A DNA stretch of 64,000 nt from Trichococcus pasteurii (GTDB lineage: Bacteria > Bacillota > Bacilli > Lactobacillales > Aerococcaceae), in contig NZ_FONM01000001.1 of assembly GCF_900112935.1 (NCBI RefSeq), positions 186,001-250,000 of the forward strand, in the 5' to 3' direction. The notes beneath the pieces are model-generated. The model was given only the letters and a program-made list of their open reading frames with translations. It did not search any database and had not been told where the DNA came from. Both the position numbers and the translations under genes were made by a program. Below, piece by piece: positions 812 through 33,303 of the stretch. Numbering within the stretch: position 1 is the stretch's first letter; each line of letters starts with the position of its first letter.

Positions 812-1662
812 TACCGATCGTTGGGCGCAACATCAAAATATTTTTCAGGGACAAAGCGAATGTCTTCTTTTCCCTGTTGGCAGTGCTGATCATCATCGGA
901 CTCTACGTCTTTTTCTTGGGTAAAAATTTGACTAGCGCTTTGGGGGACTCGATAGGAGCGCAGTACGTCATGGACAGCTGGATCATGTCCGGTGTCATTT
1001 CGGTTTCCGGAGTCACGACGACCATGGGGGCATTCGCTGTCATGATCGATGACCGGGCCAATAAAATATTGAAGGACTTTACGGTTTCACCGATCCGTTC
1101 GAGCAGATTGGCGGCAGCCTATATCCTGAGTTCCGTGGTGGTGGGCTTCATCATGAGTATCGTAACGTTGGTGCTGGCCGAAGCGTACATCTTCCTCAAC
1201 GGAGGAGAGCTGTTGGCTCCGCTTGCCATGCTGAAGATGCTCGGACTGATCCTTCTCACGGTGTTGACCAGCAGTGCGATGGTCTATTTCCTGACCTCCT
1301 TCTTCCAAAGTCAAAACGCTTTCGCGACAGCCAGCACGATCCTCGGCACCATCATCGGCTTCCTTGCCGGGGTGTATGTGCCGATCGGACAGTTCTCGGA
1401 TAGTGTGCAGACGATCATCAAGCTGTTTCCGATGACCTATTCGGCTTCCCTGATGAGGCAAGTGATGATGGAGGAACCTTTAGGGATCTCGTTCGAAGGG
1501 GCTCCGGTTGAAGTGTTGGATGCCTTCAAACTGATGATGGGCCATACCATCCGCTTCGGGGAATCCGCAGTGACTCCCTTCACCAGCATCCTGATCCTGA
1601 TAGGCACCGCGCTGTTGCTCTACGGCATGTCCATCCTGAACATCTCCAGAAAAGCGAAATAA
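808..1662 (+). CDS. ABC-2 type transporter permease
   Basis: This 284-residue membrane protein is the permease partner of the preceding ATPase. The N-terminus is short and cytosolic, with an amphipathic start (IVGRNIKIFFRDK). Six hydrophobic segments follow, near residues 20-40, 60-80, 105-130, 138-160, 170-195 and 255-278, which is the ABC-2 (DrrB-like) layout. The start overlaps the upstream stop by four bases, and a strong bidirectional hairpin follows directly. The substrate is unknown; a drug, lipid or bacteriocin exporter is typical of the family. Confidence 0.88.
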   Translation: MIPIVGRNIKIFFRDKANVFFSLLAVLIIIGLYVFFLGKNLTSALGDSIGAQYVMDSWIMSGVISVSGVTTTMGAFAVMIDDRANKILKDFTVSPIRSSRLAAAYILSSVVVGFIMSIVTLVLAEAYIFLNGGELLAPLAMLKMLGLILLTVLTSSAMVYFLTSFFQSQNAFATASTILGTIIGFLAGVYVPIGQFSDSVQTIIKLFPMTYSASLMRQVMMEEPLGISFEGAPVEVLDAFKLMMGHTIRFGESAVTPFTSILILIGTALLLYGMSILNISRKAK

Positions 1663-1664
1663 GC

Positions 1665-1704
1665 AAAGAACCGATGGCCTCGCATTGAGTGCCATCGGTT
1701 CTTT
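1665..1704. terminator. Bidirectional terminator between the ABC permease and the nucleoid protein
   Basis: A perfect 14-bp stem (1665-1678 pairs with 1691-1704) has a 12-nt loop and lies between two convergent genes. The arms start with AAAG and end with CTTT, giving short U-runs in both directions. Confidence 0.75.
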
Positions 1705-1709
1705 CGTGA

Positions 1710-2711
1710 TCAGAAAAGATTTTTGATCTTCTCGATGTTTTTGATGATGACGGATGTTGTGCCATCGGGATTATTGATGAATTCCACAACATCCGGATCT
1801 TTGTAAAGCTCCAGAGGAATGCTGATTTCGATGCCGTTATCGAGCCTGAATTTTTGTTTGGAATATTTCGGCCCGGCGACTGCCGCTTCCGCCGGGGCAC
1901 GATCGACATAACCCAGTTCCTCGACCTGTTCGAAATATTTCTGTTTCTTGGCGAAGTTATCACCGAATAAGGCTTCAGCGATCTTTTCGTTATCGATGAG
2001 GTTATCTTCCTGCATGCTCGTGACGATGGCTTCCTTCGTTTCGGCCAAAACCTGGAATTCTTCATCATTGAAGGCCTTGCTTGTCTTTTGAACAGCTTTC
2101 TTGATGATCGAGATATTCTCCTTCAGGCTCGGTTTCGGCGTGTCTTCAAGGAACATTTCCGTGAAGTAGTTCACCTTTTCGCCCAGCTCGGCAATCATGT
2201 GTTTTTTCTCGATGACATGGTATGCCATCTGCTCCAGATTCACCACGAGGCCTTCCTGGATGGCTTGTCTTTGCGAAGGCAGGATGGCACGGTTCAAGAT
2301 GATTTGGTTGGTCAGGACGTCCCCTTCGTAGGAGACAAAGTGCGTATAGCTGTCTGAGTAATTCAGCTTGAACACGCCAAGGCACGGCACTTCATCCAAT
2401 TCAAAATGAGCGATCAGCAGATCCGCAGGCGGGATTTCGGGATTCAATTTGGTCACATTGAAGAATTTTTCCGACAAGGCTTTCGTGCCTTCGACAAAAT
2501 CGCTTTGGCAATTCTTGAACAGGCCAGTCATCGGATTGTCCTCTTCCAAAATCCCGTCCTTCATGCTGTCGGAATCTTCGACCTTTGCGACCATCGCTTC
2601 GATGTATTCGATCATCATGCGCTCTGACGTATCCAGTCCGGCATAGGAAAAAATCGGTTCATTCGTGTTGATGTCCAAAATGTGTAAAATGGCTTCTTTA
2701 ATGCGTATCAA
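1710..2711 (-). CDS. 37-kDa nucleoid-associated protein (NdpA/YejK family)
   Basis: The protein has 333 residues and belongs to the NA37/YejK nucleoid-associated family. Recognisable features are the N-terminal IRIKEAILHILD, the TSERMMIEYIEAMV-like segment and the closing lysine-rich strand. These proteins are cytosolic and nucleoid-bound; their exact role is unclear. I chose TTG at 2711 as the start because ACGGAGG lies 9 nt upstream. A longer reading frame reaches an ATG at 2756 but has no ribosome binding site. It is monocistronic and convergent with the ABC genes. Confidence 0.8.
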   Translation of the reverse strand: MIRIKEAILHILDINTNEPIFSYAGLDTSERMMIEYIEAMVAKVEDSDSMKDGILEEDNPMTGLFKNCQSDFVEGTKALSEKFFNVTKLNPEIPPADLLIAHFELDEVPCLGVFKLNYSDSYTHFVSYEGDVLTNQIILNRAILPSQRQAIQEGLVVNLEQMAYHVIEKKHMIAELGEKVNYFTEMFLEDTPKPSLKENISIIKKAVQKTSKAFNDEEFQVLAETKEAIVTSMQEDNLIDNEKIAEALFGDNFAKKQKYFEQVEELGYVDRAPAEAAVAGPKYSKQKFRLDNGIEISIPLELYKDPDVVEFINNPDGTTSVIIKNIEKIKNLF

Positions 2712-22751: not shown

Positions 22752-24494
22752 GTGCCAAAATTAGTTGATTTAAAAGCAAAACCGTACAATCTTGACGACA
22801 AACAGATCGCTTGGGTAAACGAAACGATCGCGGGTATGACGGATGAGGAAAAAGTAGGACAACTGTTCACGAACCTTTTCTTCTTCGGAAATGATGCCTT
22901 CTCAGGAAACGACTTCACAAACCAAGAAATCATCGAAAAATTCCACATCGGTGGCGCACGCTATCACGGCAATTCAAAAGAAGATATCCAGGATTTGTTG
23001 AACGAATTGCAATCCATGTCCAAAATTCCTCTATTGGTGGCTGCCAACTGCGATGCAGGCGGAAACGGCGCATGCGGCGAAGGCACGTACATCGCTTCCG
23101 GTGCACAGTGTGAAGCTGCTGGCGATCCACAAGTTTCTTACCATGCCGGGCTGGTTTCTGCCCGTGAAGAAAAAGCTTTGGGCGTCAACGTCAACTTCGA
23201 CCCATGTGTGGACATCCTTTACAACTGGAGAAACACAATCGTCAATACGCGTGCTTACGGTACGGATGCAGAAACTGTCATCAAATATACGAATGCTTAT
23301 TTGGATGGCTTGACTGCTGAAAACGGCGAAAACATGGAAGACGGCGTTATCCAATGCATCAAGCACTTCCCTGGAGACGGAACGGAAGAACGCGACCAGC
23401 ATCTGGTCTTGGGCATCAATGAATTGAGCCCTGCAGAATGGCGCGCTTCATTCGGTAAAGTTTACCAAAACCACATCGATCGCGGTGTTGAAATGATCAT
23501 GGCAGGCCACATTGCAGTCCCTGCTTTGCAAAAAGAATTGAACCCTGCTTTGGAAGACAAAGACATCATGCCGGCAACGTTGGCGGAAGAATTGATCCAA
23601 GATGAATTGAAGGGCGAACTGAATTTCAATGGTCTTGTCATTACCGATGCAACACACATGCTGGGAATGACATCGGCTATGCGCCGCGAAGATTATGTTC
23701 CAAAAGCAATCGCGGCTGGTTGCGATATGTTCCTTTTCTTCAATAACATCGAAGAGGACTTCGGTTTCATGCTGAAAGGCTACCAAAACGGCGTCATCAC
23801 TGAAGAACGTTTGACTGATGCTTTGCGTCGTATTTTGGGCTTGAAAGCTAAATTGCACTTGCCGGAAAAACAAGCAAACGGCACGTTGTTGCGCACACGC
23901 GAAGACTTGAACATCATCGGCTGTGAGGAACACTTGCAATGGAGAGCGGAAGCTGCTGATAAAGGAATCTCTTTGATCAAAGATACCCAAAACAACTTGC
24001 CGATCAACCCTGTTGATCACAAACGCATCCGTCTGTACATTTTGGAAGGCGAAAAAGGCGGAATCAACGATGCCGGTTCAGCAACGCAACAACTGTTCAT
24101 TGATGAATTGACAAGCCGCGGCTATGAAGTGACTGTAAACGAACGCGGCTCACGCGTCAAAGGCGCTACTTTGAAATACCGTGATGAAGTGGACTTCGCT
24201 TTGGAAGTTTCTGATATCGTCGGCTACGGTGCTCAAAACAACTACCGTATCCAATGGAGCACTGCTATGGCAAACGAAGTTCCTTGGTTTGTTTGGGAAG
24301 TTCCGCATGCGTTCGTATCATTGAACTTCACGACGCATCTGCATGATGCGACAATGGTGAAAACATTCATCAATGCTTACCACAACAACAAAGAAACAAT
24401 CAAACAAGTCGTCGACAAACTGGAAGGCAAATCCGAATTCAAAGGCGGCCACAACGACCTGGTCTGGACCGACAAATGGCAAGCAAAACTATAG
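22752..24494 (+). CDS. Glycoside hydrolase family 3 protein, NagZ-like
   Basis: The 580-residue protein is cytosolic, with no signal peptide. The GH3 barrel carries KHFPGDG-x4-DQH (Lys204, His205, Asp215, His217), the Asp-His dyad of NagZ-type enzymes. The nucleophile is probably Asp299 in LVITDATHML. The usual NagZ PGHG is PGDG here. A second alpha/beta domain covers about 390-580. NagZ relatives remove terminal beta-N-acetylglucosamine; in this locus a beta-glucuronide or other glycoside is possible. The start is GTG after GGAGG. Confidence 0.82.
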   Translation: MPKLVDLKAKPYNLDDKQIAWVNETIAGMTDEEKVGQLFTNLFFFGNDAFSGNDFTNQEIIEKFHIGGARYHGNSKEDIQDLLNELQSMSKIPLLVAANCDAGGNGACGEGTYIASGAQCEAAGDPQVSYHAGLVSAREEKALGVNVNFDPCVDILYNWRNTIVNTRAYGTDAETVIKYTNAYLDGLTAENGENMEDGVIQCIKHFPGDGTEERDQHLVLGINELSPAEWRASFGKVYQNHIDRGVEMIMAGHIAVPALQKELNPALEDKDIMPATLAEELIQDELKGELNFNGLVITDATHMLGMTSAMRREDYVPKAIAAGCDMFLFFNNIEEDFGFMLKGYQNGVITEERLTDALRRILGLKAKLHLPEKQANGTLLRTREDLNIIGCEEHLQWRAEAADKGISLIKDTQNNLPINPVDHKRIRLYILEGEKGGINDAGSATQQLFIDELTSRGYEVTVNERGSRVKGATLKYRDEVDFALEVSDIVGYGAQNNYRIQWSTAMANEVPWFVWEVPHAFVSLNFTTHLHDATMVKTFINAYHNNKETIKQVVDKLEGKSEFKGGHNDLVWTDKWQAKL

Positions 24495-24614
24495 GATGTG
24501 ATGATTCGCGTTTAGATACCCGGACGTTGGAGCACCCAGCGTAGTGAACCTCTTTTGTTCACTACGCTGGGTGTGAAACGGGAGCGGTATCTGCGAATCA
24601 GAACTCAACTACTA
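24494..24614 (+). repeat. Structured intergenic motif, copy 1
   Basis: An outer helix GATTCGC (24503-24509) with GCGAATC (24593-24599) is followed by a conserved GTTT bulge and a second helix AGATACC (24514-24520) with GGTATCT (24586-24592). Inside is a perfect 17-bp hairpin (24533-24549 with 24557-24573). The flanks TAGGAT..GATGA and AGAACTCAACTA recur in copy 2. No coding frame and no U-run follow. Confidence 0.8.
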
Positions 24615-24735
24615 GGATACGATGAATTGCGTTTAGAGGGTGAGCACTAAGGGGACATTACGAGAACGGCCGCTTTTTGGCCGTGACGTAATGTCAACTT
24701 AGGCGGAACCCTCTGCAATTCAGAGTTCAACTAAA
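24615..24735 (+). repeat. Structured intergenic motif, copy 2
   Basis: It has the same architecture as copy 1 with different but compensated pairs: GAATTGC (24624-24630) with GCAATTC (24715-24721), the GTTT bulge, then AGAGGGT (24635-24641) with ACCCTCT (24708-24714). The inner hairpin is unrelated in sequence (GACATTACG with CGTAATGTC, ACGGCC with GGCCGT). A degenerate third piece may follow at 24736-24795. Confidence 0.8.
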
Positions 24736-24841
24736 AAGTGTGTGATGAATCCTGAGCTCAGAGTTTGAGCATCTGAATCGTGACCATTGAAGCAATGTAC
24801 CATTTTGTTCACATATCACCCAAAACACTGTTGTACCAAGT

Positions 24842-24876
24842 AAAGTCGAGAAGCATTATTCTCGACTTTGTTTTTT
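24842..24876 (+). terminator. Terminator upstream of the AraC gene
   Basis: A perfect 11-bp stem (24842-24852 with 24859-24869) is followed by G and six T. Confidence 0.88.
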
Positions 24877-33037: not shown

Positions 33038-33303
33038 AAAAAAATCCCTGTCCAGACAAGAAAATTCTTGTTTGAACAGGGACGATAGTTACCGTGTTAC
33101 CACCCAGCTTGCAAAGTCATCCGAATCGGAAAGACTTTGCCACTCTGACATGTATCGTATGCCGGACGCTTATGCGCATAAGAAAGCTCCAAAGTGTAAT
33201 TCGAATCCAGGCTTGCATCAGCTTCCACCAACCGCTGACTCTCTATAGGACAAAATCCCGATTCTACTGTCTTTTTCATCGCTTTTTATTGTATTGGTTA
33301 ATT
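33038..33303 (-). promoter_or_regulatory. Tyrosine T-box riboswitch of tyrS
   Basis: On the minus strand the leader contains the T-box sequence GGGTGGTAACACGG (33105-33092). Then comes a terminator (GTCCCTG...CAGGGA, 33083-33045) with seven T. A TAC tyrosine specifier lies in GAATTACAC (33198-33196). Uncharged tRNA-Tyr binding should prevent termination and switch on tyrS and the GNAT gene. Confidence 0.92.

Follow-up and report, generated by a model that had tools for sequence, protein, structure and literature searches.

The two adjacent structured units that directly follow a GH3 gene of Trichococcus pasteurii raise the question of what kind of element they represent. They lie in a window of 64,000 nucleotides (nt), the whole stretch of DNA analyzed (assembly GCF_900112935.1, contig NZ_FONM01000001.1, positions 186,001 to 250,000, forward strand), and had been predicted from the letters of the DNA to be a novel RNA class, an mRNA 3′-end element or a mobile palindromic repeat. 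All three options of this original prediction are supported and they are not mutually exclusive, because the units have a structure, roughly half of their arrays begin at gene 3′ ends, and the family is dispersed. Judged by sequence comparison, the units belong to a family of dispersed hairpin repeats of Bacilli that has not been described before. In the full explanation that we favor with moderate confidence, this family would also provide a structured 3′-end module for the upstream gene.

Structure of the units behind the GH3 gene

All positions are those of the window, and the features of this locus lie on the forward strand. The upstream gene (open reading frame at 22752-24494) was identified as GH3 by Pfam (PF00933), and its TAG stop codon at 24492-24494 forms the first three bases of unit 1. 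The two units of about 120 nt predicted at 24494-24735 are real and had been bounded correctly within 2 nt, with unit 1 occupying 24492-24611 and unit 2 24613-24733. Both are complete structured repeats, unit 1 with a core of type A and unit 2 with a core of type B. With the covariance models R1 and R2 described below, unit 1 scored 133 bits and about 111.6-111.7 bits, and unit 2 scored 130.8 and 104.2 bits (90.3 bits with R2 when filters were off). Each stretch folds as a single compound hairpin, with a fold z of -8.4 for 24494-24615 (unit 1) and -9.6 for 24613-24738 (unit 2), and in neither case did any of 200 dinucleotide shuffles fold as well.

The units of the family are about 120-130 nt long, occur singly or in head-to-tail arrays, and fold into one long compound hairpin with conserved outer ends (AGGAT..., ...TCAACTA and variants). 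The outermost layer is a loose TAG...CTA closing element, followed by AGGAT-type and TCAACTA-type strands; in unit 1 the stop codon of the GH3 gene can pair with CTA at 24609-24611. Inside the outer strands lie a covarying 2-bp step (GT/AC in unit 1, AC/GT in unit 2) and a tandem G·A (GA opposite GA), which precedes helix 1. Helix 1 comprises 8 bp and helix 2 comprises 7 bp, the latter mostly starting with A-U, G-C, and they are separated by a one-sided GTTT bulge, for which GGTT, GGGT and GTTC occur as variants. Inside helix 2 there are a core of recurrent type, a short stem, often a GGA/GA loop, and an apical hairpin that is hypervariable. In unit 1, the GA of the tandem G·A loop (24500-24501), recognized by sequence reading and covariation, is followed by the 5′ arm of helix 1, TGATTCGC (24502-24509), whose partner GCGAATCA at 24593-24600 continues into GA at 24601-24602. 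The GTTT bulge, read from the sequence, occupies 24510-24513, and the 5′ arm of helix 2, AGATACC (24514-24520), pairs with GGTATCT (24586-24592). The corresponding parts of unit 2 are TGAATTGC (24623-24630) with its partner GCAATTCA (24715-24722) and GA at 24723-24724, the bulge at 24631-24634, likewise read from the sequence, and AGAGGGT (24635-24641) with ACCCTCT (24708-24714).

The original description of both helices, of the flanks and of the GTTT bulge was thus correct. Helix 1, however, has one pair more than described, giving 8 pairs, as a U-A precedes GATTCGC, and the tandem G·A and the 2-bp step had been overlooked. The view that the inner hairpins are unrelated did not hold: each represents a core type, A (CGTTGGAGC...GYGAAACG) or B (GAGCACTAAG...CTTAGGCGGA), found at other loci as well. 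Pairing is indeed possible between GAACTC of unit 1 and GAGTTC of unit 2, but the two sequences are two end types and this complementarity is not kept in other arrays (by eye).

No U-run directly follows unit 1 or unit 2 in the window, as had been stated. A separate intrinsic-terminator-like hairpin with a run of six T, supported by sequence and folds, lies at 24842-24876, so that the units sit between stop codon and terminator. An intrinsic terminator was rejected as identity of the units on account of the missing U-run and this separate site. A mini-open reading frame 3′ of the stop codon (ATG ATT CGC GTT TAG) was also rejected, as by eye it is absent from other copies.

Copies and taxonomic spread

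A pattern search gave the first hint of further copies in the same genome. The covariance-model search proposed in the original prediction was carried out with model R1, built from six copies; it returned 27 matches at E≤1 in this genome, 25 of which span the whole model at E≤3e-8. Among relatives R1 matched 18 of 60 genomes, including 13 of 13 of the genus, and a pattern search of named genome contigs yielded 67 loci. Model R2 was then built from 54 matches (47 distinct) of six genera. It found the family in all 13 Trichococcus genomes searched and in 46 of 76 genomes and 12 of 21 genera of the taxonomic family. In the order at least 124 of 395 genomes and at least 43 of 80 sampled genera carry it, 83 of these carriers belonging to families other than that of the window, and in the class at least 18 of 398 genomes do, 14 of them outside the order; the order and class counts are lower bounds, as no more than 9 candidates were scored in each genome and the filters were strict. 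Copy numbers ranged from 3 to 91 per genome among 14 chosen carriers that were rescored. A 1.26-Mb scan with R2 gave E<0.2 only at two known sites and omitted the second unit of three tandem arrays, unit 2 of the window among them, which means that the counts of tandem copies are too low. Instead of lacking further copies, or showing uncompensated changes elsewhere, the motif therefore recurs widely and with compensation.

The failure of the original prediction to recognize a known riboswitch or repeat was borne out by Rfam, as none of 4227 models exceeded its gathering threshold at the window units (best E 0.93). Four sets of other loci (9, 7, 17 and 9) gave no Rfam match to the units either. 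What matched at those loci was, outside the units, a tRNA in L114 and a TPP riboswitch in L303, and also a T-box in L050, where the unit lies in a 223-nt insertion. Among the records listed by literature searches, none was seen to describe the family. Strong covariation outside Rfam in so many genomes of the order (at least 124 of 395) points to a widespread structured RNA or DNA class that was missed by annotation, probably because the stems have so little common sequence.

Covariation and fixed unpaired letters

Pairing was evaluated in two alignments. A6 contains 47 distinct rows; A7 contains 48 distinct rows and draws on other loci, some of them in genera already present in A6; it is model-aligned and hence biased to the model structure. 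In A6, 90.9% of cells are paired versus 32.8-39.6% when the partner is slid by 1-3 columns, and the values for A7 are 91.2% versus 34.7-45.2%. Double changes occur at 32 of 34 pairs in A6 (539 cells) and at all 34 pairs in A7 (544 cells), in agreement with the earlier suggestion that the covariation implies structural selection. Further pair types were no more frequent than in shuffles in A6 (98 versus 98.1) and more frequent than in shuffles in A7. RNAalifold, applied to the model-fitted A7, recovered helices 2-5 with double changes at all 33 predicted pairs and did not return the outermost TAG/CTA helix. In A6 the outermost pair of that helix is unpaired in 23 of 47 rows, and the other two are formed in 47 and 46 rows. 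The fold z-scores together with the covariation in A6 and A7 rule out a chance origin of the paired structure. Chance and DNA-level palindrome processes would each be compatible with the two window copies taken alone, but the larger samples argue against either.

The stems of many copies have little sequence in common, whereas the unpaired motifs, tandem G·A and GTTT-type bulge, are constant. In A7 the first G and the third T of the bulge are each present in 47 of 48 rows. The left tandem G·A shows G in 43 and A in 42 rows, the right one G in 38 and A in 47 rows, and the inner closing pair of helix 1 is C-G in 43 rows. Mismatches within the stems are biased towards one strand. G·T outnumbers A·C by 31 to 26 in A6 and by 47 to 19 in A7, and G·A outnumbers C·T by 55 to 11 and by 47 to 6, respectively, although the latter excess may partly stem from tandem G·A positions misplaced into pair columns. 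On the opposite strand of the window, unit 1 scored 17.5 bits with R2 versus about 111.6 bits on the sense strand. Both the mismatch bias and the lower opposite-strand score fit folding of the sense strand, and neither tells RNA and single-strand DNA apart.

Position relative to stop codons and terminators

The position of the units was assessed for 155 arrays with enough flanking sequence, using sense open frames of at least 100 codons and counting left ends located no more than 8 nt from a stop. Such a sense stop was found for 40 of 80 arrays in Trichococcus and for 31 of 75 in other genera, compared with 6 of 80 and 0 of 75 in a mirror control that measured from the right end to an antisense stop. 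Some of the arrays occupy orthologous sites, and their independence is incomplete. In 10 further arrays of Trichococcus and 11 of other genera a stop is located 100-149 nt upstream. This distance corresponds roughly to the length of one unit and suggests that a first unit went undetected. Examples beyond Trichococcus are found at a PNPase gene (L275), a solute-binding protein gene (L288) and an nrdD-like gene (L280), the array at the latter having a preceding unit. Ten upstream genes were assigned by Pfam to GH3, class I (R) tRNA synthetase, Cpn60, HisIE-type domains, AICARFT/IMPCHase, YchF, 2-hydroxyacid dehydrogenase, GatB, a CBS domain and, in a genome of another family, a solute-binding protein. 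This mixture led to rejection of a common upstream function. The 300 nt downstream contain a terminator-like hairpin with a T-run in 35 of 78 arrays, the mirror control giving 17 of 78, so many, though not all, arrays lie between a stop codon and a terminator. As a separate observation, units occur with a gene ending in ...KMYRK both in Trichococcus, where a remnant lies at the stop codon (L007), and in a genome of another family, where the unit is complete (L288); this coincidence may be due to chance.

Turnover and dispersal

Orthologous sites differ in their content of units. Twelve genomes have the GH3 gene, and a whole-model match follows it in 11 of them and a partial one in G009; the unit types are A-B in the species of the window, C-A-B in G011, and B or C elsewhere. 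Whole-model matches were found behind the CBS-domain gene in 8 of 12 genomes and at a 158-codon frame in 7 of 13, and the remaining genomes at these two sites have collapsed remnants, a fragment or no match at all. A fourth site holds a single unit in G000, two in tandem in G001 and none in G006. The G006 locus without a unit (G006:C1, reverse, orthologous to G000:C26:185379) harbors different tandem hairpins, TTTATCGGACAACC...GGTTGTCCGATA, after the stop.

Units at unrelated genes can be identical. Those of L013, which follows a YchF-like gene, and L122, which follows a 463-codon frame at the same place as L042, agree in 119 of 119 nt. Among 812 full-length unit pairs with unmatched upstream flanks, 12 reach 97%; in three of these the same unit bears two locus names, and one consists of two units from a single array, so that 8 remain. 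Conversely, 114 of 188 unit pairs with the same upstream gene lack a full-length unit match, a figure that is indicative as same-locus duplicates are included. The appearance, loss and replacement of units at orthologous sites, together with identical units at unrelated genes, thus mean that the family spreads or converts. Several losses, as judged by eye in G005, resemble a deletion across the direct repeat that the right end forms with the bulge motif, and units seem to be lost at least partly by deletion between short direct repeats.

Two candidate signs of a specific mechanism were rejected. An apparent 13-bp target duplication at site 1 is no proof, as the repeated stretch is the unit's own left core. 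The occurrence of n+1 cores for n units is a doubtful sign of site-specific recombination, because the outer two base pairs covary across the unit, so that units move whole, and because collapsed units resemble direct-repeat deletion (by eye).

Comparison with known repeats

By analogy, dispersed intergenic hairpins of about 125 nt without a known mover are of the ERIC/NEMIS/RUP/bcr1 kind. ERIC (IRU, RU-1) is described as a 127-bp intergenic repeat that forms one long stem-loop and is dispersed without a known transposase, in which it resembles the present units. Reports on ERIC include 7-bp terminal repeats, TA termini and target duplication as well as co-transcription and a link to mRNA stability (PMC2229807). 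ERIC is enterobacterial, whereas the units described here have widely variable stems and occur throughout Bacilli; the two were set apart by description. When the ends were checked for TA termini in A7, the left end had A in 43 of 48 rows followed by G in 37, and the right end had T in 44. TA flanks each unit at site 1 in G001; no clean pre-insertion site was found.

REPs are likewise palindromes near stop codons. GTAG REPs are reported often to provide the TAG stop codon (PMC3733652), and REPs located no more than 15 nt from a stop are reported to stall ribosomes (PMC12306157). They are described as 20-40 bp long, in contrast to about 125 nt with several conserved loops in the present family, in which a left-end TAG is common and the GTAG tag is inconstant. 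A further difference from REP/RAYT is that the Y1 transposase is missing from five carriers. The bcr1-bcr18 elements of the Bacillus cereus group share the bacterial class and the dispersed occurrence. They are reported to measure 100-400 bp, to be often located in untranslated regions (UTRs) or intergenic parts of operons, to resemble miniature inverted-repeat transposable elements (MITEs) in the case of bcr1-3, and to have a mobility tied to a TTTAT motif (PMC3446304, PMC6542083). For bcr3 a longer mRNA half-life was reported, with a caution by the authors about small numbers (PMC3446304). Unlike the present family, bcr1 is reported to be restricted to the B. cereus group, and it was set apart by description.

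Efa-1 of Enterococcus faecalis is also a Firmicute intergenic stem-loop family that was found computationally (PMC2267715). Compared by description, it measures 163 bp and consists of two adjacent stem-loops in place of a single compound hairpin. RUP and BOX of Streptococcus pneumoniae resemble the units as small dispersed repeats of a Lactobacillales relative. They are known from S. pneumoniae; the available part of PMC2229807 ties RUP to IS630-Spn1 and TA targets and does not report stop-codon anchoring for it. In a survey of stem-loops, intergenic ones of low-GC Firmicutes were often near the upstream stop, and most were explained as terminators and not by large repeat families (PMC1590033). 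What sets the present family apart from the known kind is its class-wide spread, the combination of freely varying stems with fixed loops, and the stop-codon anchoring. In the best reading it would be a mobile hairpin repeat of the ERIC/bcr1 kind that forms a new, class-wide and stop-codon-anchored family.

An integron attC site carries core boxes at its two ends (RYYYAAC ... GTTRRRY). The right ends of the two window units read GTTGARY on the bottom strand (by eye). The left end has no RYYYAAC partner, however, and ends such as ACGCGTTTA lack the box (by eye; an integrase was not searched for), and attC was rejected.

A putative 3′-end module and its alternatives

The units are probably co-transcribed, forming either the beginning of the 3′ UTR or a spacer between cistrons. 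The sense-strand RNA would then fold directly ahead of the terminating ribosome. At the GH3 gene, helix 1 of unit 1 starts 8 nt 3′ of the stop codon, and from this placement we infer a ribosome-proximal role in the 3′ UTR as the most natural reading. Such a structured module may alter mRNA decay or ribosome release of the upstream gene. An insertion exactly at the stop codon could preserve a stop and would thus be harmless and retained. A more far-reaching version can be offered only tentatively: a class-wide mobile element would target stop codons, insert in sense orientation and, with variable stems and a fixed tandem G·A and GUUU bulge recognized by a protein, serve as a common 3′-end device for many unrelated mRNAs. 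Equally tentatively, the module would be recognized as structured RNA or as single-strand DNA by a putative protein of the host or of the element. This version raises the question of what kind of mobility is able to aim at stop codons.

Several observations weigh against a 3′-end module. Arrays that start elsewhere than within 8 nt of a sense stop amount to 40 of 80 in Trichococcus and 44 of 75 in other genera. The longest neighboring frame is antisense in 19 of 89 arrays, and some arrays lie antisense between genes, one such locus being common to several species. In G036 one unit is located inside a T-box leader, that is, in a 5′ UTR. Neither the antisense arrays nor this unit are predicted by a pure 3′-UTR function. 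The excess of G·T over A·C is weak in A6, and the copies share descent, with neither cells nor arrays being independent. No target-site duplication or clean empty site was found, G006 and the zero-unit sites being too altered to define a boundary. Finally, the conserved structure could instead be needed for mobility as single-strand DNA.

The latter is the core of the strongest alternative, which we regard as unlikely yet a serious contender, namely that the units are selfish non-autonomous mobile DNA (MITE- or REP-like) without host function. A transposase or recombinase would recognize the single-strand hairpin, the covariation would reflect the need for a DNA hairpin, and the position at stop codons would merely mark harmless sites. 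The dispersal and turnover of the units, their conserved ends and head-to-tail arrays agree with this, as does the precedent of REPs that supply a TAG stop. The unit in the T-box leader of G036 resembles a tolerated insertion. This leader spans 1332-1769 (+) of L050, with a T-box score of 93.5 bits that barely reaches the cut-off of 93, and the unit (1501-1629) lies in the 223-nt insertion, which is located in a variable hairpin between the specifier and antiterminator parts. L050 is therefore a natural filled site in a known RNA that is comparable with empty relatives. Harmlessness alone, however, accounts neither for starts at the stop codon over the rest of the intergenic space nor for the sense orientation. 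Plasmids and phages gave no match with blastn, a method nearly blind to diverged stems, and a pattern search of IMG/VR gave none. PF01797, the IS200/IS605-type Y1 transposase, was absent at E≤0.001 from the carriers G009, G018, G021, G030 and G036, other mover families not having been searched. It is thus unneeded today, and a Y1 transposase was rejected as required mover for present-day carriers.

It is improbable that the family is a trans-acting RNA class in which arrays are processed from 3′ UTRs to stable small RNAs whose conserved loops bind a protein. The near-fixed helix lengths and fixed unpaired motifs do resemble a protein-binding rod, and many genomes contain tens of copies, but copy number and position vary freely among species. 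Still more improbable is DNA-level palindrome processing, in which template switching rewrites one arm from the other and yields compensation without structural selection: long imperfect palindromes are expected to undergo such arm correction and the units are clearly unstable by deletion, yet the process would erase mismatches, whereas the tandem G·A and the bulge stay unpaired (47 of 48 rows each for the bulge G and the 3′ A of GA) and the mismatches are strand-biased.

For the favored 3′-end module, the presence of zero, one or more units of differing type behind the same gene in sister species represents a natural experiment. It would make effects on mRNA decay, ribosome release and operon balance measurable.

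Variant units and further features

Two of the 25 whole-model matches in the genome of the window (L032 and L033) carry a different 3′ half. This alternative half, CTTAGGCACTCA(A/G)ACGTCAC(A/G)GTGCGACGTTTGAGGTCTTT, replaces the right arms in L032, L033, L034, L074 and L315, and from its sequence such a unit can be regarded as a chimeric element. A second small palindrome of the ATGGCTCT...AGAGCCAT type, with GCGATTGAAATCGC between its arms, is joined to units just 5′ of GACAAATCC, at or shortly before their left end, in several arrays of Trichococcus (L028, L069, L106, L115, L116, L136, L146, L151). By its appearance this palindrome is a further repeat nested within the left end of the unit.

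In the window, unit 2 is followed at about 24736-24771 by a truncated remnant of a third unit, which was recognized by eye in comparison with full units of this type in L067 and L072. It comprises the left core and the start of a type-B-like core and scores only 6.3 bits with R2. The window also harbors a T-box leader on the reverse strand at 33075-33288, which scored 115.7 bits at a gathering score of 93.

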